The notes under the pieces were generated by a model that searched no databases, had not been told where the DNA came from, and was given only the letters and a program-made list of their open reading frames with translations. A stretch of DNA of 41,313 nucleotides from Lachnospiraceae bacterium (GTDB taxonomy: Bacteria; Bacillota; Clostridia; Lachnospirales; Lachnospiraceae), in contig JAAUZM010000030.1 in assembly GCA_014804605.1 (NCBI GenBank), positions 99,057-140,369 of the forward strand. Direction: 5' to 3'. A program made the position numbers and the translations under genes. Of this stretch, positions 25,895 to 34,934 are shown one piece after another. How positions within the stretch are numbered: position 1 is the stretch's first letter; each line of letters starts with the position of its first letter.

Positions 25895-25981
25895 TTATTT
25901 CGAACAGTCAAACCCCGGATTAAACGCATAGAAGTTCTTCTCATTCAGTCTATCCTGAACGATTCTGAGAGCTTCACCAAA
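25895..25981 (-). pseudogene. cotJC: Detached 3' end of cotJC
   Basis: The minus strand reads FGEALRIVQDRLNEKN then FYAFNPGFDCSK and a TAA stop at 25895-25897. This is the conserved C-terminal tail of CotJC, absent from the main cotJC gene at 33663-34217. The first four residues FGEA are encoded by both copies at the 11-bp repeat GCTTCACCAAA (25971-25981), and the frame agrees. Joining codon 175 of the main part to the 25 codons here gives a 200-residue CotJC. There is no start codon, so it is silent unless the mobile element excises. Confidence 0.9.
25971..25981. repeat. Left attachment-site direct repeat (attL core)
   Basis: GCTTCACCAAA, identical to 33691-33701. To its left is cotJC coding sequence; to its right ACGGGAA starts the element. 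Confidence 0.85.
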
Positions 25982-26010
25982 ACGGGAAGATTGAAGTAAA
26001 AATCTTTTCA

Positions 26011-26027
26011 AAGAAGCACAGCTTCTT
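26011..26027 (-). terminator. Small hairpin after the recombinase gene
   Basis: AAGAAGC / GCTTCTT with a 3-base loop. On the minus strand it is followed by TGAAAAGATTTTT, so it may be a weak terminator for the recombinase gene. Confidence 0.4.
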
Positions 26028-26077
26028 AAAAATTTTCCTCATAGATTGCGTGTTTTAGACTTTCATGGTGTGTGATG

Positions 26078-27583
26078 TTAAATGTTCCATGTGATTTCAA
26101 TGTTACCGTTTGCAATCCGAATGACTTTGATTAGTGTATCAACCACCGCCTGTCTGTCCTCGAAAGGGAGCGTTTCCCATGCTTTTACATGGTTGGTTAT
26201 CTGCTTGAGTCTGCCCTCTGTGTCTGTGACATTTGCCGTAACGATTTCTTCCTGCAAGGCTTTTCGTTCTGTATCCAGTTCTGATACCTTTTCGTCTATG
26301 TATTTCATCAGAACGCCGCTTGCTCCGGACACTTTGGATAAAAGTTCTTCAATTTCTTCCTCAATCTGTGTCAGACGGATTTTTTTCGTCATATTCTTTT
26401 GTGCTTCTCCAGTGTTAGTTACACAGGAAAGTTTTTGAAACTCCGACAGTCTTTCTTTAATTGCACCAAGCATATATTCTTCCAAAACGTCTGCATAAAT
26501 AGTACAGCCTGCACCCTTGCAGTTCCCGTGATTTCCCGACTGGCTGCATACAAAGTAGCGTCCCCATTTTGTCTTTGCCTTTCGGATCGTCAGAGCGTAA
26601 CCACAATTTCCACATTTTACCTTGCCTACAAGCCACGAATTTTTCGGTTTACAGGTCTTTGTGGATTGTCTGTTGTTCAGACACCGTATACGGCAGGCTA
26701 ACCACGTTTTAGAGGGAATAAAGCCCTTATGCGGTGCAAGGACGATTTCTTTGTTGAACAAGTCGCATTGTTTCCTCGTAGTGGAAACTGTACCCTTGTA
26801 GAGATAGCAGGCATTATATCCTGTAAAATCACTCGCCGGGTTATAGATATTTGCGCCTTGACTTTGAAAGAACTGGTACACGTCAATGTCGGCTTCCACA
26901 TACACGGGATTGCGGAGCATTTCGCTGATACGGGCGGTATTCCAGTTTGCACCACGCAGATTTTTAATCTGGTGTTCATTCAAGTACCGTACAATATCGC
27001 CAAGTGAATTATCTGTGTCTGCATACATGGAATAAATCAGCTTTAGCTGTTCGCTTTCCTCCGGGACTTCCTCATACATGGAAGTACGGACATTATCAAT
27101 GACCGTGTTTGTCAGACGATAGCCATAGGGAATACGACCGCCCATGTAAAAACCACGTTTGCACCTTGCATAATAAGCGTCCGTCACACGTTTCTGTATC
27201 GTTTCCCGTTCCAGTTGGGCGAACACGATACAGATATTTAACATTGCCCTGCCGATTGGCGTAGAGGTGTCAAACTTTTCCGTGGAAGAAACAAACTCAA
27301 CATGATATTTCTGAAAGATTTCCATCATGTTTGCAAAGTCCAGAATAGAACGGCTGATACGGTCAAGTTTGTAGACAATGACACGCTTTATTTTGCCTGT
27401 GCGGATATCATTCATCATTTTTTCAAAGCCCGGTCTGTTGGTGTCCTTTCCAGAAAAACCTTTGTCTGTATATTCAATATAGGCTTCCCCGTGGGTTTCG
27501 TATCTGCAATACTCAAGCTGGCTTTCTACGGATATGCTGTCCTTTTTTTCGATTGACTGTCTTGCATATAATGCGTCATACAT
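26078..27583 (-). CDS. Large serine recombinase (TnpX/TndX-like)
   Basis: A 501-residue site-specific recombinase. The N-terminal resolvase domain has the catalytic Ser10 in YARQS, then SVESQLEYC, GFSGKDTNRPGF and YKLDRISRS with the catalytic arginines. The recombinase domain (about 150-270) is followed by a zinc ribbon (KCGNCGYALTIRK...FVCS...C) and a coiled coil near 400-450 (IEEEIEELLSKV...ELDTERKALQEE), as in large serine integrases. It should insert and excise the element at the cotJC site without needing long homology. The gene ends about 100 bases from the left junction. GGGAGG lies upstream of the ATG. Confidence 0.93.
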   Translation of the reverse strand: MYDALYARQSIEKKDSISVESQLEYCRYETHGEAYIEYTDKGFSGKDTNRPGFEKMMNDIRTGKIKRVIVYKLDRISRSILDFANMMEIFQKYHVEFVSSTEKFDTSTPIGRAMLNICIVFAQLERETIQKRVTDAYYARCKRGFYMGGRIPYGYRLTNTVIDNVRTSMYEEVPEESEQLKLIYSMYADTDNSLGDIVRYLNEHQIKNLRGANWNTARISEMLRNPVYVEADIDVYQFFQSQGANIYNPASDFTGYNACYLYKGTVSTTRKQCDLFNKEIVLAPHKGFIPSKTWLACRIRCLNNRQSTKTCKPKNSWLVGKVKCGNCGYALTIRKAKTKWGRYFVCSQSGNHGNCKGAGCTIYADVLEEYMLGAIKERLSEFQKLSCVTNTGEAQKNMTKKIRLTQIEEEIEELLSKVSGASGVLMKYIDEKVSELDTERKALQEEIVTANVTDTEGRLKQITNHVKAWETLPFEDRQAVVDTLIKVIRIANGNIEITWNI

Positions 27584-27621
27584 TTAGTATCTACCTCCCA
27601 AAACGTAAGACGCAATACCCA

Positions 27622-27650
27622 ATGTCAAATTCTTATGGAATTTGACATTA
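27622..27650. repeat. 12-bp inverted repeat upstream of the recombinase gene
   Basis: AATGTCAAATTC / GAATTTGACATT with a 5-base loop. It lies between the 54-residue gene and the recombinase gene, so it could be an operator, an attenuator, or a recombinase or accessory-factor binding site. The 11-mer CAATGTCAAAT recurs at 32941-32951 near the other end of the element. Confidence 0.6.
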
Positions 27651-27689
27651 AACTGATCATACCGTTTGTATGATTGTTTTGCAAGTGAC

Positions 27690-27854
27690 TTACGCATACT
27701 TTTTGAAAATCTGATAGAGCCGGGCTGCTATTTCCTGTCGGGTTTCCTGCTCTGTTTTTTTCTGAAAGGCGGGGTAGATATTGGTAACTGTCAGCCTCAT
27801 TTTATCCTTGCGTATCTGGGTATCGGGTGTAGGAGAGGTATCGTTGTTCAGCAT
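27690..27854 (-). CDS. 54-residue element-encoded protein
   Basis: A short gene preceded by a strong ribosome-binding site, AAAGGAG, 6 bases before the ATG. The protein starts MLNNDTSPTPDTQIRKDK and continues MRLTVTNIYPAF, a basic and polar N-terminus followed by a likely beta-strand and a helix (QETRQEIAARLYQIFKKY). The position directly upstream of the recombinase and the pattern TVTxxYPxF then helix recall the small TnpW-like proteins in Clostridia transposons, but I am not certain. It could be a directionality factor (excisionase-like) or unrelated. Confidence 0.65.
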   Translation of the reverse strand: MLNNDTSPTPDTQIRKDKMRLTVTNIYPAFQKKTEQETRQEIAARLYQIFKKYA

Positions 27855-27903
27855 AAACTTTCTCCTTTGGCGGTTTCCCTTAATTTTATGAGAAGTGGCA
27901 AGT

Positions 27904-27989
27904 ACACTATAACAGTGTGAGAAGAACTTCTAAAACTCATGTCATAGGACATTTCGTTAAGAAGTTCTAAATCTCACACAGAATAGTGT
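27904..27989. repeat. Long imperfect inverted repeat upstream of the 54-residue gene
   Basis: The left arm 27904-27931 (ACACTATAACAGTGTGAG, then AAGAACTTCT) and the right arm 27960-27989 (AGAAGTTCT, then CTCACACAGAATAGTGT) pair along ~28 positions with a few mismatches and a 28-base loop. It sits upstream of the small gene and the recombinase, so it may be their operator or leader, or an origin of transfer. Confidence 0.65.
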
Positions 27990-28087
27990 AGATTACCCCT
28001 TTACCCTTACTACGCACGTAAGGGAAAATCTGGCAAGTTTTTTGTGGAATTTTATAAAAAGTTTAGAAGAGCAGAATAGCAAGCATA

Positions 28088-28151
28088 GGGATTGAGTACT
28101 CAATCCCGTAAATTTTCACATTGTCGTCCTTGCGGACTTGTAAAAATTTGC
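28088..28151 (+). repeat. Double-hairpin element, copy 2
   Basis: A perfect 20-base palindrome GGGATTGAGTACTCAATCCC (28088-28107) is followed by a hairpin with arms GTAAATTTTCACA and TGTAAAAATTTGC and the inner tip GTCC-TTGC-GGAC. It has the same architecture as the element at 2554-2611 with different arm sequences. Confidence 0.55.
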
Positions 28152-28209
28152 TTGTTAGGAACGCGTCCAAGCCAACTTTAGTTGGCTTTACCCTTCTTAG
28201 AAAAAGCAG

Positions 28210-28258
28210 AAAAAGACACCGGGGAATGACAGTCAATGAAACTGCCATTGTCCGGTGT
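28210..28258 (-). terminator. Terminator of the winged-helix gene
   Basis: On the minus strand the stem ACACCGGACAATGGCAG / CTGTCATTCCCCGGTGT (some mismatches) is followed by CTTTTTCTGCTTTTT. It begins right at the stop codon of the 28259-28657 gene. Confidence 0.75.
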
Positions 28259-28657
28259 TTATACATTGAATTTATAGCCGACACCTAAAACGGTTTTTAT
28301 GTATATTGGGTTTTTGCTATCTGGTTCAATCTTTTTACGCAGGTTGTATATTACATTTACCACACTGGACTGGCAACTATCACTATCCATGCTCCAGACT
28401 GCTTCAAAGATTTGTTCCTGCGAAAATACCATGCCCGGATAGGAAGCTAAATACACAAGCGTACCATATTCAAGTCGGGTAAGGTAAATATCAATTCCGT
28501 CCCGGAGTACCCGGCGTTGGTGCTGTCTTATTTCCAGTCCCGGAAAAACCAATGCGGGGGATTGTGGCGGTTGTATGGCTTCCAGCGGTATCATATCGGC
28601 AAGGGCAGTTATGGCTTTCTCAACCGCTTTTTCTTCCGTGTCGTTGAATATAAGCAT
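28259..28657 (-). CDS. Orphan OmpR-type winged-helix protein
   Basis: A 132-residue protein. The C-terminal ~90 residues are a transcriptional-regulator winged helix like that of OmpR/PhoB (LEIRQHQRRVLRDG, LTRLEYGTLVYLA, VFSQEQIFEAVW, VVNVIYNLRKKIEPD, YIKTVLGVGYKF). The N-terminal ~40 residues are too short for a receiver domain and no phosphoacceptor Asp is present, so it is not a normal response regulator. It probably controls element genes. ATG 28657 was preferred because TGGGAAA lies before it; GTG 28681 in frame is an alternative. Confidence 0.8.
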   Translation of the reverse strand: MLIFNDTEEKAVEKAITALADMIPLEAIQPPQSPALVFPGLEIRQHQRRVLRDGIDIYLTRLEYGTLVYLASYPGMVFSQEQIFEAVWSMDSDSCQSSVVNVIYNLRKKIEPDSKNPIYIKTVLGVGYKFNV

Positions 28658-28866
28658 GACTATTTTCCCACGAAAAACCACCTCCCGTTATAGTGTATGA
28701 AAACTTTACAGAAGCTGTTGAAAGTTTACATGATATGTTCCTTGTATGCTTCTGTGCAAGTCATAGGAAATTTACCCTTTCTCCCACATAGGACGTTGTT
28801 TATTTGACAGTTACATTTATTCTGAAAAAGGACGATTACATTTTGAAATATTTACTACTTCTTAGG

Positions 28867-30918
28867 TTATGGCTCAATGTTTTTATTAAACTGAAAATAT
28901 GTTATAGAAAAATATAAAATGTATATCCCAAGAAAACTAGTCAATGAAATGCAAAAATATAAAATCCATTCTGTACGTATTCCTGTGTAAATCACAAATT
29001 GTCGTCCTACATATAGTATAAATACTGCACTGATAATAACCGAAAGGATAACAGGGCATAGATAGTAGAAGAATAGCTGCTTAGCTACTACCTGTCTGAT
29101 TCTTTTTTTCCCCAATCCAAGTTTGTTTAAAATCTGATAACGAAATTTATATTTATTGGAATCGCTTAACTGTTGGACGGAAAGAACCGTAAGTGATACA
29201 CACAAAAACACTAATCCAATATAAAATAATGGAAATGACAGGGTACTCATTAAAAATTTTAGTTCTAAAACCTCTCGGCTTTTGACTTGTATGGTAGCAG
29301 GCATTAAAAAAAGTTCTTCGCTTCCAATTTTTATATAATCAGCCAATTCATCATATCCCCGTATTTTTCCGGTTAAATCATATAAACATTCTGATAAATA
29401 CTCCGGCACATCTCCGTTTGCCATAACTGCCATAAGTGAAAAATATTTTTTCATTCCCGCAAGTTTCTTATCTGGCACAACCAGCAAGTAATCTGTTCCA
29501 TTATGCCCATTTTGTGCAAATCCCTCTGTTTTGAATCCAGCAAAATCAAGCCCTATATTTAGGCTATTGGGTAGTTCGGCACTTTTATCCTTAATTTCTT
29601 GATATACACGGTTTGCTATATGAATTAAATACTGGTCATCTTGCAAAGTAACAGGCGTTAAATCCAGCATTTCCCGTAAACGGTTATAATCGCTAATTCC
29701 CATATACACATCATAATCATAATAAGCAACAGCCCGTTTTCCCTCTGCCACAACTGGGTCGCTATCCCTATCAGAAAAAATCCTTAAATTCTGATACAAA
29801 TAATCGCTCATATCACTTGTTCCGTTTTGGTATACAAAATATTTCAATATATTCCGTGGATTTATATTTTCGTTTATCAATGATTCTTCTTGAGAAAAGT
29901 CATTGCTCGTATTATCGCTGATTATAATAATGTCAAACGGATATTCTACATCTAATTGTTTGTTTTGATAGTCGCTCAACATAAACGCAAGCGAACTTCC
30001 TACTAGCGCAAACATAAACAAAAGACTTAATGTTCCAAGAACAAAACAGGTATTCCGCATTTTTGAGGAAAACTGCCTAATCATAAATAAATATTCTCTT
30101 TTATAGATTAACTTGCCTTTCCCATTTATATAATTCATCAGAAAAGCGGAAAGTCCTAAATAGAAAAAGTAAAACGTAAAAATCAGCCCAATCATTTCCA
30201 ATATCGCTGTCCATTTCGTTATCCCGCCTGTAAAAATCAGAAAATATAAAAGCAATATATTTCCTATGGAGAGAAAGAACAGCTTTTTCCATAAAGCGTT
30301 TCGCTTTTCATTTACTGTTTCATTCTGCTTATCCATGTTAATTAAATTGATTATTTCCATGTGGGAAAACTTTTTCCTGTTCCGAAACAGGGCAGCAAAA
30401 AAACAAACGCCATACAAGATAACTGTCAATATTATGCTACCCGTTGATATTTCTACATTTACCTTGTAATTTTTCCCGATACTTTTATAAAAAATGAAAA
30501 ATAGCACCTGCTGTAATCCACTGCCGAAAATCAGTCCTGCAAAAAGAGCGCATACGCCAAGATAAAGATTTTCTTTCATGTAAAGACTTGCAATTTGTTC
30601 TTTCCTCATTCCCGATAACAAATAAATAGCAAATTCCCGGCTTCTTTTTTCTAAAATGAAACGGGTCATATAATTGATCAGCCAAGCTACTATGATAAGA
30701 ATTGTCACTGTGGAAACGGACATAAAAGCAATCAACATAGTTCCTGCTGTAGATAGTTCCCCATTATTTCCGTAATGAATCATTTCGTAAATATCTTTTG
30801 AAAATAGTAGTGAATGAAAGGAAAAAGTAATGGCAGTTATCATACATAAGGTCAAAAAATAATTCAAATAGTCTTTCCACAATCTCCACGCATTTCGCAA
30901 TGCAAGTTTATTCAGCAT
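28867..30918 (-). CDS. BceB-like ABC transporter permease (FtsX family)
   Basis: A 683-residue permease with about 10 membrane helices. The N-terminal LALRNAWRLWKDYLNYFLT and the helix carrying EFAIYLLSGMRKEQI (FtsX-like) are typical of the peptide-antibiotic permeases BceB/YtsD. A large extracellular domain of about 220 residues (about 320-540) lies between the middle helices, which is the hallmark of transporters that sense and remove bacitracin-, lantibiotic- or nisin-like peptides. It overlaps the ATPase gene by 11 bases. ATG 30918 was chosen over GTG 30930 for spacing from GGGGGTGA. Resistance function is inferred from family only. Confidence 0.85.
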   Translation of the reverse strand: MLNKLALRNAWRLWKDYLNYFLTLCMITAITFSFHSLLFSKDIYEMIHYGNNGELSTAGTMLIAFMSVSTVTILIIVAWLINYMTRFILEKRSREFAIYLLSGMRKEQIASLYMKENLYLGVCALFAGLIFGSGLQQVLFFIFYKSIGKNYKVNVEISTGSIILTVILYGVCFFAALFRNRKKFSHMEIINLINMDKQNETVNEKRNALWKKLFFLSIGNILLLYFLIFTGGITKWTAILEMIGLIFTFYFFYLGLSAFLMNYINGKGKLIYKREYLFMIRQFSSKMRNTCFVLGTLSLLFMFALVGSSLAFMLSDYQNKQLDVEYPFDIIIISDNTSNDFSQEESLINENINPRNILKYFVYQNGTSDMSDYLYQNLRIFSDRDSDPVVAEGKRAVAYYDYDVYMGISDYNRLREMLDLTPVTLQDDQYLIHIANRVYQEIKDKSAELPNSLNIGLDFAGFKTEGFAQNGHNGTDYLLVVPDKKLAGMKKYFSLMAVMANGDVPEYLSECLYDLTGKIRGYDELADYIKIGSEELFLMPATIQVKSREVLELKFLMSTLSFPLFYIGLVFLCVSLTVLSVQQLSDSNKYKFRYQILNKLGLGKKRIRQVVAKQLFFYYLCPVILSVIISAVFILYVGRQFVIYTGIRTEWILYFCISLTSFLGIYILYFSITYFQFNKNIEP

Positions 30919-31681
30919 AAATATCTTCACCCCCTATTTGGGACTGTATATCAAGAATACGGTTTAGGTAATCTTTTTTACTCATATTTTCCCGGTTTAA
31001 TTCAGCACATATTTTTCCGTCGCTCAAAAATAAAATCCTCTCACAATAACAGGCTGAAAACACATCATGTGTTACCATTAAAATAGTTGCGCCTAGTTCT
31101 CTGTTCATAACCTGTAAAGTACGAAGCAGCATAGTAGATGATTTAGAGTCTAAAGCCCCTGTTGGTTCGTCAGCAAGAATCAATTTCGGTTTGTTGACAA
31201 GTGCCCTTGCACAAGCCGCACGCTGTTTTTGCCCGCCGGACACTTCATACGGGAATTTACTCAAAATATCGCCAATATGTAGGGCTTCCGATATATTCTT
31301 TATTCTGCTTTCTATTTCTTCTTTCTTCTCGCCGCTAAGAGCCATAGGAAGCATAATGTTTTCTTCAATGTTTAATGTATCTAAAAGATTATAGTCTTGA
31401 AAGACAAATCCAAGGTTTTTCTGCCGAAAGTCAGATAGTTCAGCTTCATTCATTCTTGATATATCAATCTTGTCATAAAAGACCTGTCCGTCCGACATAG
31501 TATCTATGGTAGAGAGAATATTTAAGATTGTGGTTTTACCAGAACCAGAAGCTCCCATAATTCCAATAAATCCCCCTTTATCAACATAAAAGTTCACATG
31601 ATCAACGGCGTTTACTTTTACATTTCCTGTTCCATAATTTTTTACAAGATTTTTGACTTCAATATAATGATGTTCTGTCAT
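30908..31681 (-). CDS. BceA-like ABC transporter ATP-binding protein
   Basis: A 257-residue ATPase of the MacB/LolD/BceA type. Walker A is GASGSGKTT, the Q-loop is FVFQDYN, the signature is VSGGQKQRAACARAL and Walker B is LILADEPTGALD, with switch His in VTHD. It pairs with the permease at 28867-30918. It is encoded 6 bases after the XRE regulator, so all three genes form one operon, with the regulator first. Confidence 0.92.
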   Translation of the reverse strand: MTEHHYIEVKNLVKNYGTGNVKVNAVDHVNFYVDKGGFIGIMGASGSGKTTILNILSTIDTMSDGQVFYDKIDISRMNEAELSDFRQKNLGFVFQDYNLLDTLNIEENIMLPMALSGEKKEEIESRIKNISEALHIGDILSKFPYEVSGGQKQRAACARALVNKPKLILADEPTGALDSKSSTMLLRTLQVMNRELGATILMVTHDVFSACYCERILFLSDGKICAELNRENMSKKDYLNRILDIQSQIGGEDIYAE

Positions 31682-31687
31682 AAAATT

Positions 31688-32461
31688 TTACCTTTCCTTT
31701 CTTTCGGGATTTCGGAGTAATATTGAGTAAGACCAGTAAATACCTATACAAAAAAATGTGATAAAGCTACTGATACCTGTTAAAACCATAGAGAATACAA
31801 TATAAAAGAGAATATTTGTATAACTCATATTCTCAAATATAGGAAGCCCCCAACCGCTGTTACTTGCTCCAAATATCACTAGACCAATCGCAATACCACC
31901 AACCAACATTTTCTTCATCTTAATAAATTCCTCTTGTATTTCCGTTCGCACTTCCTCATCAAAAACAAGTTCCTTTTTCCGAAGCATTCTGTAAGGATTT
32001 TGTTTCAAAGCAATATAAATTACGATAGCAAGCAACATAATAATTGATATGGTTGTAAGTATTGGAGCAATATTGGAAGCGAACAAATAATGTTCTGTCG
32101 ATGTATAAGATACTGAATTACAACCTAACGCAATTCCACTCGCCGCAGCCAATAGCAAGAATTTCTTTTTATAATAGAACAGAAAACCATTTGCTGTTTC
32201 CCTGCTTACATAAAATCCCTTTGTTTCTTCCGAAAATTTTCTTTCTTCTTTTGAGCCAAGCTCCTTATCATCAATCAGTAAATCGTCAAGTGTTATTTGA
32301 AATATTTTACTAATCAGAATAATTTTTTCTGTTTCGGGATAGCCGTTATTATTTTCCCATTTGCTTACAGCCTGTCTGCTCGTATTCAATTTTTCTGCTA
32401 AGGCTTCTTGTGAAAGCCCCTGCGCCTTTCTTAACTTATACAGTTTTTCACCAAATGTCAT
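31688..32461 (-). CDS. XRE-family regulator with membrane domain
   Basis: A 257-residue protein. Residues 1-65 are a lambda-repressor-type helix-turn-helix (LYKLRKAQGLSQEALAEKL, NTSRQAVSKWENN). After a linker of about 35 residues come four hydrophobic segments (about 105-125, 135-155, 190-210, 220-245). A membrane-bound DNA-binding protein next to a BceAB-like transporter suggests that the membrane part reports on peptide stress or transporter activity; that is inference. It may repress its own promoter, which has an inverted repeat (see 32487-32522). Confidence 0.88.
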   Translation of the reverse strand: MTFGEKLYKLRKAQGLSQEALAEKLNTSRQAVSKWENNNGYPETEKIILISKIFQITLDDLLIDDKELGSKEERKFSEETKGFYVSRETANGFLFYYKKKFLLLAAASGIALGCNSVSYTSTEHYLFASNIAPILTTISIIMLLAIVIYIALKQNPYRMLRKKELVFDEEVRTEIQEEFIKMKKMLVGGIAIGLVIFGASNSGWGLPIFENMSYTNILFYIVFSMVLTGISSFITFFCIGIYWSYSILLRNPERKER

Positions 32462-32486
32462 ATTTTTTTCCTCCTAACTCTCATTC

Positions 32487-32522
32487 ATGATAGCATAATA
32501 AAGTGAATTTTCTATCATTCAA
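32487..32522 (-). promoter_or_regulatory. Promoter and candidate operator of the XRE-ABC operon
   Basis: On the minus strand TTGAAT (32522-32517), a 16-base spacer and TATTAT (32500-32495) form a promoter just upstream of the XRE gene. The inverted repeat ATGATAG / CTATCAT (32518-32512 and 32493-32487) overlaps both elements, a likely autoregulatory site. Confidence 0.55.
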
Positions 32523-32937
32523 CTTTAACAATTCCGCAACTTTAAGTTGCTTTTGTTTATTTCCTCCTGTAAACATCATTGAAAACTCGCTTAAAATAAT
32601 AATTTAATATTATATCCGACAAATTGAAACAAAAATCCAAAAAGTAACTATATGGTTTATTTATCTAACAAACATATGAAGAATGAAGTGAAATTTCGTC
32701 GTCGGCATTGTGGTAAAATCTTATCTTTTGGATTTTTCCATGAAATCTTACGTTTTTGTGTTCGGAATAGAGTGGTGCTGGCGGTCTATATAATTTAGGA
32801 ATATTATATTAAGTAATAAAAATGAAAGCCGGGAAACAGCAATCCGTAGACTGCCATTCCCCGACTTTTCAATTACTCTATATCTTCCGCAGGTAAAAAC
32901 ACAAGTCCGGCAAATTCTTTTTACGCCTTTTCCAGAC

Positions 32938-33017
32938 TATCAATGTCAAATAGCCAAGTCAAGGACGTAAACGCCGCTAAAGCGGTAAATCCTTGACTTG
33001 ACTGTCTGCCATTGATA
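32938..33017. repeat. Nested inverted repeat (cruciform-like)
   Basis: Three concentric arms: TATCAATG / CATTGATA outside, AAGTCAAGGA / TCCTTGACTT in the middle and CCGC / GCGG around a TAAA loop. The 80-bp structure has no gene in it. Such nested dyads are common at transfer or replication origins; no nick consensus is recognised. Confidence 0.6.
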
Positions 33018-33216
33018 AGGGGTAATCAAGGCATAAATGAATAACTATGTTGGCTACATTCTTTTCACTTCCATTCCTTTCCCGTGATAGGAAAATCGGA
33101 TTATCAGTTAAAGAACGGATAGGAAAGGAATAGATATTTTATCATTCTGTATTTTATTCTTTAGTATTTTATATATCTATATTTTATTGCGTTGGTTTTC
33201 CCTGTGTTGGAAATAC

Positions 33217-33573
33217 CTATGTTGGATTATCCGGTGTAGGCTTTTCCATGACAGGCTTTTTGCTATAATCTTCATTCAGCATTGGAGAAGAATAGACGGT
33301 ATATTCCATTTCCCGAAGTTGTCCCTTTTCATTCCGCACTCTGGCACGGGTAATATATCCTGCCTGTTCTAATTCGTGTATAACCGTTGTAATGGCGTCT
33401 AATCCCTCTTTGTTGATATACGCTAACCCTTGCAATGTAAAATTCCATTCTGGGGGCATTGAGAGCATTTGACACAGCAATCCCTTTGCCCGAAGGGACA
33501 ACTGGCGGTTGCGTAAATGAAGATTTGGCATAATCGTATAATCTTTGACTTTCTTTACTCTGAATACTGGCAT
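33217..33573 (-). CDS. Truncated replication-initiator-like HTH protein
   Basis: A 118-residue protein. Residues ~1-90 (MPVFRVKKVKDYTIMPN, LSLRAKGLLCQMLSMP, LAYINKEGLDAITTVIHELEQAGYI) are the N-terminal winged helix found in DUF6017/replication-initiator-A-like proteins of Clostridia conjugative elements. Those proteins run to ~250-300 residues; here the frame ends after EKPTPDNPT. Downstream, in the same frame, the linker pattern continues as VFPTQGKPTQ, NIDI, NTKE, NTE with a stop between pieces, so the gene is probably decayed. Its DNA-binding domain could still be made. Confidence 0.65.
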   Translation of the reverse strand: MPVFRVKKVKDYTIMPNLHLRNRQLSLRAKGLLCQMLSMPPEWNFTLQGLAYINKEGLDAITTVIHELEQAGYITRARVRNEKGQLREMEYTVYSSPMLNEDYSKKPVMEKPTPDNPT

Positions 33574-33662
33574 AATAAACTTGTCCTTTCTTTTGGTGTG
33601 AAAGCCTAAATCATAGCTTAGAGGAAATGTGGGTATGCGTCTTAGTGATTGTATTTTGTGTG

Positions 33663-34217
33663 TTACGATTTACTACAATGTTCCCGGTTTGCTTCACCAA
33701 ATCTCTGGAAATGCACGACTTCCCTTGCACGCAGGAATTTGATCGGTTCACAGACTTCCTGATCGTGAACGAGTCTTAAGATGTTGTCATAGGTAGTTCT
33801 TGCTTTCTGCTCCGCAGCCATATCCTCTGTCAGATCCGTGATGATATCACCCGTGGACTGGAACTGAGCCGCGCTGAACGGGAATCCGCCTGCGTCCTGA
33901 GGCCAGATGCCGATCGTGTGATCTACATAATAGTTGGAGAAACCGGATTTCTCGATTTCTTCCATGGATAAGTCCTTAGTGAGCTGGTGTACGATGGTAG
34001 CAACGATCTCTAAGTGCGCTAATTCTTCTGTGCCGATATCTGTCAGAACAGCGGATACTTCCCTGTAAGGGCAGGCATATCTCTGGGACAGGTAGCGCAT
34101 GGAAGCGCCCATTTCACCGTCGGGACCGCCGTACTGGCTGATAATCGCCTGTGCCAGCATTGCATTAGGTTCTGTAATATTGACGGGGTATTCAAGTCTT
34201 CTTTCATAATTCCACAT
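33663..34217 (-). CDS. cotJC: Spore coat protein CotJC, C-terminus replaced by the element
   Basis: A manganese-catalase-like coat protein. MWNYERRLEYPVNI is the normal N-terminus and the ferritin-like metal motifs are present (QYGGPDGEMGASMRYLSQRY, TEELAHLE, AAEQKARTTYDNI, AREVVHFQRFGE). After Glu175 the sequence changes from the expected ALRIVQ... to ANREHCSKS and stops, giving 184 residues; the last nine codons come from the inserted element. The native tail is at 25895-25972. ATG 34217 follows GGAGG and overlaps the cotJB stop by one base; a longer frame to 34259 lies in cotJB. The shortened protein may keep its fold. CotJC is normally made in the mother cell during sporulation. Confidence 0.93.
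   Translation of the reverse strand: MWNYERRLEYPVNITEPNAMLAQAIISQYGGPDGEMGASMRYLSQRYACPYREVSAVLTDIGTEELAHLEIVATIVHQLTKDLSMEEIEKSGFSNYYVDHTIGIWPQDAGGFPFSAAQFQSTGDIITDLTEDMAAEQKARTTYDNILRLVHDQEVCEPIKFLRAREVVHFQRFGEANREHCSKS
33691..33701. repeat. Right attachment-site direct repeat (attR core)
   Basis: GCTTCACCAAA, identical to 25971-25981. To its right is intact cotJC coding sequence; to its left TTCCCGGTTT ends the element. Confidence 0.85.
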
Positions 34218-34492
34218 TAAGCACAACCTCCTTCCCAAGGCATAGGCATTGTAGCCCAATCCCAGCCGCCGCAGTTAGAGGTGTCAGCGAGTGCCAGTGT
34301 CAGAGGGCCGAATTTTTCAGAGTATTCTTTTTTGGCCTGATTAGTCATACGATTATAGTGGTTAAAATATTCCATTGCATTTCTGTCGGTAGGATGGGTG
34401 TCCAGATACAGGGACATTTCGATGACTACGAAGTCCAGAACCCGGATATCGTGCAGCAGTTTTTCCTGCTCGTTGGCAAAATGCATATTCAT
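34217..34492 (-). CDS. cotJB: Spore coat protein CotJB
   Basis: A 91-residue CotJB: LLHDIRVLDFVVIEMSLYLDTHPTDRNAMEYFNHYN is the family core, followed by the C-terminal GPLTLALADTSNCGGWDW and WPWEGGC-like end (MPWEGGCA). CotJB is an inner-coat protein expressed with CotJA and CotJC under sigma-E in Bacillus. A GGAAGGAG site lies 11-12 bases before the ATG. The gene overlaps cotJA by four bases and cotJC by one, so the operon is translationally coupled. Confidence 0.92.
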   Translation of the reverse strand: MNMHFANEQEKLLHDIRVLDFVVIEMSLYLDTHPTDRNAMEYFNHYNRMTNQAKKEYSEKFGPLTLALADTSNCGGWDWATMPMPWEGGCA

Positions 34493-34662: not shown

Positions 34663-34934
34663 ATGATCCCTTTCTTATATAGTTAACGACATTAAAATTT
34701 ACGCTTTCGTTCTTATAAAAGTTTCCGTATATGGCTCCTACAAGAACCGGAAGCAGGAATTTGTTATGTTGTTTACTATAATTTAAAGTGTTTTTAGTAA
34801 TATAATATGATATAATCGTGGCGGTGTGTTTGCGGCAAATATGACCGGACACAGAAATTTCACAATTTGATAAGAATAGAAACACACTTTGCGAGTACAT
34901 TTATATGAGCGTTTGCAGAAGGGAGGACCCTATT

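Follow-up and report, generated by a model that had tools for sequence, protein, structure and literature searches.

A 7.7-kb mobile element in the spore-coat gene cotJC of a Lachnospiraceae bacterium, a probable sporulation intervening element, and recurrent splitting of cotJC in Clostridia

A stretch of 41,313 nucleotides from a Lachnospiraceae bacterium (assembly GCA_014804605.1, contig JAAUZM010000030.1, positions 99,057 to 140,369 of the forward strand; hereafter the window) contains the spore-coat gene cotJC, which is interrupted close to its 3' end by a mobile element carrying its own large serine recombinase, as a first-pass annotation of the sequence had described. The cotJC frame on the minus strand, running from a start at 34217 to a stop at 33663, encodes 184 residues, in which nine foreign codons (ANREHCSKS) follow Glu175. 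Beyond the far end of the element, on the same strand and in the same frame, are the 25 codons that this frame lacks (ALRIVQ...FDCSK, stop at 25897-25895), and joining the two parts in silico at the sequence that they share yields a 200-residue CotJC with an intact frame. The rejoined protein is 100%, 99% and 96% identical to uninterrupted CotJC proteins of the same genus (genomes G011, G018 and G012, respectively), bearing out the expectation that excision would restore the gene. A search of relatives for an empty site, which had been proposed as a check, also succeeded: the DNA of these three sister species is an exact empty site, with 92.8-94.6% identity over ~2.7 kb and an alignment that crosses the join without a gap (190 bases displayed), and their CotJC proteins have the native end rather than ANREHCSKS. 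The window genome carries SpoIVA, and a second intact cotJC was not found in it at the search threshold.

Both junctions carry a repeat of 11 bp, GCTTCACCAAA, which occurs exactly twice in the window (chance expectation 0.04; two copies in 0 of 100 shuffled sequences). Its gene-strand form, TTTGGTGAAGC, covers cotJC codons 173-176, referred to below as site C, and the recombinase gene ends ~96 bp from the tail junction. At most loci split at site C, TTTACTTCAATCYTCCCG precedes the repeat at the tail junction and AAACCGGGAAGATTGYAGTAAA follows it at the exon-1 junction, the two being inverted repeats of each other; L080, L082, L088, L093 and L114 are exceptions to these common ends. Judged by its sequence context, the repeat forms the core of a serine-recombinase site whose arms are inverted, the layout usual for attP sites of large serine recombinases and described also for the gin element. 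Coordinates of all features, together with the other break sites in cotJC discussed below, are collected in Table 1.

Table 1. Features of the split cotJC locus in the window, and break sites found in cotJC.
Feature	Position	Strand	Remarks
cotJC exon 1 (codons 1-175 and shared core)	33691..34217	-	Pfam Mn_catalase 3.6e-45 (manganese catalase family)
Element-made end of unexcised frame (ANREHCSKS and stop)	33663..33690	-	Similar ends at other site-C loci
Stranded cotJC 3' end (last 25 codons and stop; first codon shares core)	25895..25970	-	
Whole element, core to core	25982..33701		7,720 bp
Crossover core, exon-1 junction	33691..33701		11-bp repeat
Crossover core, tail junction	25971..25981		11-bp repeat
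attP arm, exon-1 side	33669..33690		TTTACTACAATGTTCCCGGTTT on plus strand
attP arm, tail side, inverted relative to other arm	25982..26000		ACGGGAAGATTGAAGTAAA on plus strand
Large serine recombinase, 501 residues	26078..27583	-	Resolvase, Recombinase, Zn_ribbon_recom; 79 related loci
54-residue open reading frame (ORF) upstream of recombinase	27690..27854	-	Core motif in 38 of 43 upstream regions examined
Conserved stretch ATA-N17-CATAAAAT, upstream of the 54-residue ORF	27883..27913	-	Possible promoter, a lead only
Response-regulator C-terminal domain without receiver domain (cargo)	28259..28681	-	Trans_reg_C 2.1e-20
FtsX-type ATP-binding cassette (ABC) permease (cargo)	28867..30930	-	
ABC transporter ATPase (cargo)	30908..31681	-	
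Helix-turn-helix (HTH) regulator with membrane-like C-terminal part (cargo)	31688..32461	-	HTH_3 1.3e-15
Small HTH protein (cargo)	33217..33573	-	Weak HTH_36 match, below cut-off
cotJB, upstream within operon	34217..34492	-	CotJB 8.4e-29
cotJ operon promoter-like motif, ACACAC-N-GATTATA-CATATTATA	34801..34829	-	Conserved; 79 upstream regions aligned
Break site A1	cotJC codons 60-62		Core GACATCGGT
Break site A2	Near cotJC codon 62		Arms differ from A1
Break site B	cotJC codons 133-135		Core GCAGCAGA
Break site C	cotJC codons 173-176		Window element; distinct recombinase C2 in L114
Break site D	Near cotJC codon 25		L056

The window recombinase belongs to a family that is largely dedicated to cotJC. 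From a contig scan for its relatives, in which the best 80 of 97 were taken and 79 loci kept, a cotJC fragment was found at 74 loci by the first search and at 75 when L104 is included; at three of the others (L048, L087, L089) the same half-site abuts sequence other than cotJC, and L065 is left unassigned. The half-sites in L048, L087 and L089 point to secondary target sites. These recombinases are under constraint (pS 0.36, pN 0.031; 1,348 pairs), and the elements that carry them are small, between 2.5 and 9.1 kb in the 40 measured, with varied cargo that includes ABC transporters, MatE, an acetyltransferase and a ParE-like protein. At L081, L088 and L106 the recombinase is opposite in direction to cotJC, and the element may thus insert either way round.

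Internal stops are absent from the stranded segments in all three codon ranges compared (0/18 for codons 66-131, 0/27 for 138-171 and 0/81 for 178-196), and 77 of 78 tail fragments are open to the native end, or 73 of 74 after trimming, which dropped L071 (with two fragments that probably follow another copy), L112 (whose fragment follows a full copy) and a duplicate contig (L057 = L181). By comparison, breakage affects 4 of the 10 pieces that lie behind an intact cotJC and 1 of 76 stranded pieces (Fisher p 5e-4; counts before trimming), with the reservation that the two classes may differ in age and that many loci show the tail alone. The ten leftover loci are L112, L127, L128, L129, L132, L145, L156, L157, L158 and L173, with L145, L157, L158 and L173 broken; the count leaves aside the leftovers that lie on other contigs (L147, L159, L172, L186), among which L159 is broken and L147 has a conserved Gly changed. 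For codons 66-131, 138-171 and 178-196, pooled nearest-neighbour omega is 0.072, 0.099 and 0.044 in stranded pieces, 0.050, 0.062 and 0.028 in intact genes, and 0.102, 0.094 and 0.025 in leftovers (n = 4, 4 and 6), while stranded-versus-intact comparisons give 0.084, 0.090 and 0.119, the stranded set spanning more genera than the intact one.

The clearest case is provided by three loci, L097, L098 and L099, with recombinases that group in a single clade (support 1.0); L097 and L099 have the whole 7.75-kb element in common at 92.6% identity. Silent divergence in the host exon (0.25-0.32) agrees with that in the recombinase (0.18-0.20), and the element therefore appears to have been inherited vertically. 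Across these loci the stranded tail (codons 177-200) has accumulated seven silent changes, at codons 177, 178, 183, 185, 191, 194 and 195, and no amino-acid change, a pattern with a neutral chance of ~1e-5 (14 sites being silent and 58 non-silent), or 2e-4 on the assumption that 30% of changes are silent. Even at a distance of kilobases, the tail therefore most likely continues to be read within CotJC, for which excision before cotJC is needed would be the simplest cause.

Other elements have clearly moved between hosts. Over 7,016 bp, L043 and L118 have elements of 99.9% identity, whereas silent change in their cotJC genes is close to saturation (39 of 43 silent sites in codons 65-132) and eight silent and eight non-silent changes separate the tails on the far side of the element; the element therefore moved and the tail did not. 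Likewise, the recombinases at site A1 are near-identical in G068 and G070 despite diverged hosts, and very different in G009 and G059, whose hosts are closer.

Splitting of cotJC is not confined to site C: other recombinases interrupt it around codons 25-34, 60-68 and 133-135. The genus search covered 77 genomes, of which 66 gave a cotJC match, with further loci fetched afterwards; a tally by hand found full-length cotJC in 32 of the 66 and a split or shortened gene in 34, although for G054 and G058 the split is taken from a 5' piece that runs to the contig end. These 34 comprise 12 genomes with site A1, two with A2, five with B, 13 with the site-C exon end and two placed by their tails; two of them (G033, G034) also have a paralogue that is 65% identical. 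Several cotJC genes are split twice, for example in L066, L082, L115, L116 and L119. The breaks lie within or next to the segments GGPDGE, EELAHLE, AEQKAR and REVVHFQ, which can be aligned with manganese catalases of known structure and which we take to hold the metal ligands. In the recombinase tree the B, C and A2 groups form one clade each; as the tree is rooted on an A1 sequence, monophyly of the A1 group cannot be judged from it. Three genomes (G035, G017 and G049; loci L127, L128 and L129) have a full-length cotJC followed, kilobases downstream, by more pieces starting near codon 59, and site-A elements may carry their own cotJC 3' part, restoring the gene upon insertion. Elsewhere in the set, cotJC codons 49-199 occur as two tandem copies on one contig (L124, G038:C68, 4661-8665), and the cotJB match of L177 (G007:C14, 1476-1979) is in two separated parts (1-54 and 77-90), such that cotJB itself may be interrupted.

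Beyond the genus, a family-wide search gave a cotJC match in 249 of 396 genomes and no match at all in 147, and in a class-wide draw 97 of 146 genomes matched. Two pieces meeting at codons 59-72 were present in 12 of these 97 (G542, G552, G566, G568, G577, G603, G604, G622, G632, G649, G659, G666), which belong to nine families by their given labels; seven of the 12 have the pair on a single contig and strand. The pieces are ~5 kb (G649) to ~157 kb (G568) apart. Recombinases were sought in regions from 11 class-level genomes. A serine recombinase lies directly at the break in eight (G568, G577, G622, G625, G626, G649, G659, G666), within the element but away from the break in G566, and 5.5 kb off in G646; none was found in the region fetched from G593. 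In G659 and G666 cotJC is broken once more, at codons ~29-34, and a separate recombinase accompanies this second break. Of the nine class-level junctions tested, five have in-frame shared cores of 5-13 bp, and no such core was found for the other four. Two genomes assembled as one contig, G568 and G659, both have a split cotJC; in G568 (L192, L193) the distant pieces are on the same strand with the recombinase at the distal piece, as might arise from a very large insert or a later rearrangement. One frame at L188 (4980-7334) combines a serine recombinase with a DNA-alkylation-repair-like domain.

Within the window element, which has a single recombinase, the 54-residue ORF has no Pfam match and is a candidate directionality factor. 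The stretch upstream of it resembles what we take to be a sigma-E site, a lead rather than a result, and an inverted repeat around TGTGTGAGATTTAGAACTTCT / AGAAGTTCTTCTCACAC was seen by eye at 27905-27985, also upstream of the ORF. The motif before the cotJ operon is presumably sigma-K-like. No clear sporulation promoter was seen by eye upstream of the site A1, A2 and B recombinases, and the spoIVA upstream region of the window genome was unusable as a promoter yardstick. Pfam and NCBIfam scans recognised no phage structural family among the window cargo, which sets the element apart from prophages, and no relaxase among the scanned window ORFs, as would mark an integrative mobilizable element; a site-A relative, L121, carries a Mob_Pre relaxase. 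Against the PDB, the similarity of the window recombinase to TnpX of Tn4451-type transposons covers only residues 15-106, which match one TnpX domain (1.4e-8) and rank behind the TP901-1 integrase and SP-beta YokA. A viral origin was considered and rejected: viral contigs contained neither relatives of the recombinase nor matches to the half-site pattern, and the recombinases in phage records are all <60% identical. Those in plasmid records are likewise <60% identical, the best at 47.5% among the best 5,000 records.

Taken together, we regard the window element as a sporulation intervening element that occupies a fixed site in cotJC, moves horizontally and is excised in sporulation, with a probability of about 0.72. 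This reading draws on the split, the site anatomy, the empty site, the restored frame, the mobility, the repeated use of cotJC by unrelated recombinases and the constraint on stranded exons, all of them features of the sequences compared; excision, its link to sporulation, and a role of the small ORF or another factor in setting direction would be the predicted consequences, with timing, cell type and directionality modelled on skin, gin and yin. In growing cells, cotJC would be split by the element; during sporulation the recombinase would join the two half-sites and the element would leave as a circle, with the 54-residue protein or another factor setting the direction of recombination, and the full 200-residue CotJC would then be made in the mother cell. 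As the mother cell has no descendants, the germ line would retain the element. Several observations weigh against this. Upstream of the recombinases, the search for a sporulation promoter gave at most a lead. The pattern of an excised circle (attP) had no match in viral contigs, 397 family genomes or 77 genus genomes, a weak negative in that a product made only in the mother cell would seldom reach assemblies. With movement so frequent, many insertions may be young, and since many loci display the tail only, those genomes may have an intact copy elsewhere. Pooled omega alone fails to separate the classes, and at codons 178-196 the stranded-versus-intact value stands far above those of intact genes and leftovers. 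Finally, the sole broken tail after trimming, in G048, is a damaged tail still carried by a genome whose recombinase is truncated and whose half-site is lost. The corresponding locus (L154, G048:C16, 6200-6560) has the truncated site-C recombinase fused to the last 19 cotJC codons and represents a dead element.

Most of these points would suit an ordinary mobile element whose conserved attachment site lies in a gene that the host can do without; cotJC would then simply be knocked out, with no developmental excision, and intact exons would reflect young insertions and fast turnover. The near-identical elements in diverged hosts, the missing attP, the non-restorable tail tolerated by G048 and the 147 family genomes lacking any match, from which the gene can evidently be lost, all favour such an account. 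We nevertheless consider it unlikely, as the insertion shared by L097, L098 and L099 appears old with a tail still constrained, stranded segments have no stops while leftovers are often broken, and half of the genus has a split gene without decay. The first-pass annotation had considered both developmental excision and a permissive gene end possible; under the latter, the hybrid 184-residue protein works at site C and excision is unneeded. The hybrid does keep the metal-motif segments, and the element-made C-terminus is similar in many loci, yet the native tails are kept, with only silent change in the vertical clade, and splits after codons ~33, 62 and 136 are left unexplained. Because other recombinases split cotJC where a working protein is unexpected, and because the stranded native tail is conserved, a permissive end now seems quite improbable. 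The likeness to developmental elements that the annotation had drawn is strengthened by the site-specific insertion, empty sites, restored frame and tail constraint, and is tempered by the absence of an excised junction from assemblies and by G048. Exons could also be kept intact by reversible excision in growing cells, for phase variation or element transfer, independently of sporulation: mobile elements must excise at times, and yin was found excised at every culture time point (PMC10747680). Against this, no circle junction was present in the family and genus assemblies, and a spore gene is the target in every site family read, making such excision a distinctly remote explanation. An assembly artefact or binning chimera has next to no probability: most carriers are metagenome-assembled genomes (MAGs) and many contigs break inside elements, but both junctions are on one contig in the window and at many loci, nine strain-named records without a MAG label carry split-off cotJC pieces (L042, L044, L052, L056, L058, L068, L085, L100, L105), and the one-contig genomes are split too.

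The gene as a whole is best read as a new, recurrent target of a known kind of sporulation intervening element. We lean, with less assurance than for the window element, towards cotJC being a general docking gene of spore-forming Clostridia, in which unrelated serine-recombinase families would use four or more sites in conserved catalase-motif DNA, and in which a single spore gene may contain two or more developmental DNA introns, with a dedicated recombinase to cut each one out in the mother cell. If so, a split spore gene would offer non-phage mobile elements a stable niche from which they continue to pass between species; such elements may have found a safe place in a gene needed only in a cell about to die. 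The many natural replicates lend themselves to questions of selection for developmental excision, of its timing and of the way in which a mobile element joins a developmental programme. In addition, where the annotation of a Clostridia genome gives cotJC as truncated or missing, the gene may be split.

In the open-access literature searched, we found no title or opening abstract that describes an intervening element in cotJC; a cotJC-like gene, CDR20291_1465, has been described beside the phi027 prophage of C. difficile (PMC11222575). The known sporulation intervening elements in the papers compared are mostly prophage-like and occupy one site in one gene, whereas cotJC, a single coat gene, is interrupted at several sites in many genera, sometimes twice per genome, by small elements that have unrelated recombinases and no recognised phage genes. 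Among the closest counterparts is gin in gerE of Bacillus cereus, with a 9-bp shared core and a 27-bp imperfect inverted repeat (PMC5595907): like the window element, it is not a phage, splits a mother-cell spore gene within codons, has a serine recombinase, and restores the frame by excision. However, gin measures 28.6 kb and has three recombinases, one target site and demonstrated excision (PMC5595907), while the cotJC elements, whose excision is predicted, are several-fold smaller, with one recombinase in the window element and several target sites in one gene. The skin element in sigK of C. difficile and B. subtilis likewise splits a spore gene with an internal serine recombinase, and excision in the window would restore the gene as it does there; skin is prophage-like, and its excision is directed by CD1234, driven by sigma-E and SpoIIID (PMC5025042). 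For such a factor, the window element has at most its 54-residue candidate. In C. botulinum, yin splits the spore gene yabG with a recombinase of the same three Pfam domains, and has a 14-bp repeat and inverted repeats; it is prophage-like, is described as unique to one strain and was measured to excise (PMC10747680), in contrast to the widespread cotJC elements, which are not phage-like. The SP-beta prophage, excised from spsM of B. subtilis at sporulation to restore a spore-envelope gene (PMC4191935), is a full active prophage, unlike the window element, which has no recognised phage genes and no relative in viral contigs. Outside sporulation, IME_Rho_tet and similar gut integrative mobilizable elements target MAFF2 ORFs and carry a relaxase; they are ~10 kb long, with a serine recombinase, 21-bp inverted terminal motifs, a preferred target ORF family and a spread among gut genera (PMC12904643). 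No relaxase was recognised in the window element, which is similar to these elements in its approximate size, its serine recombinase, its inverted terminal motifs, its preferred target and its spread.

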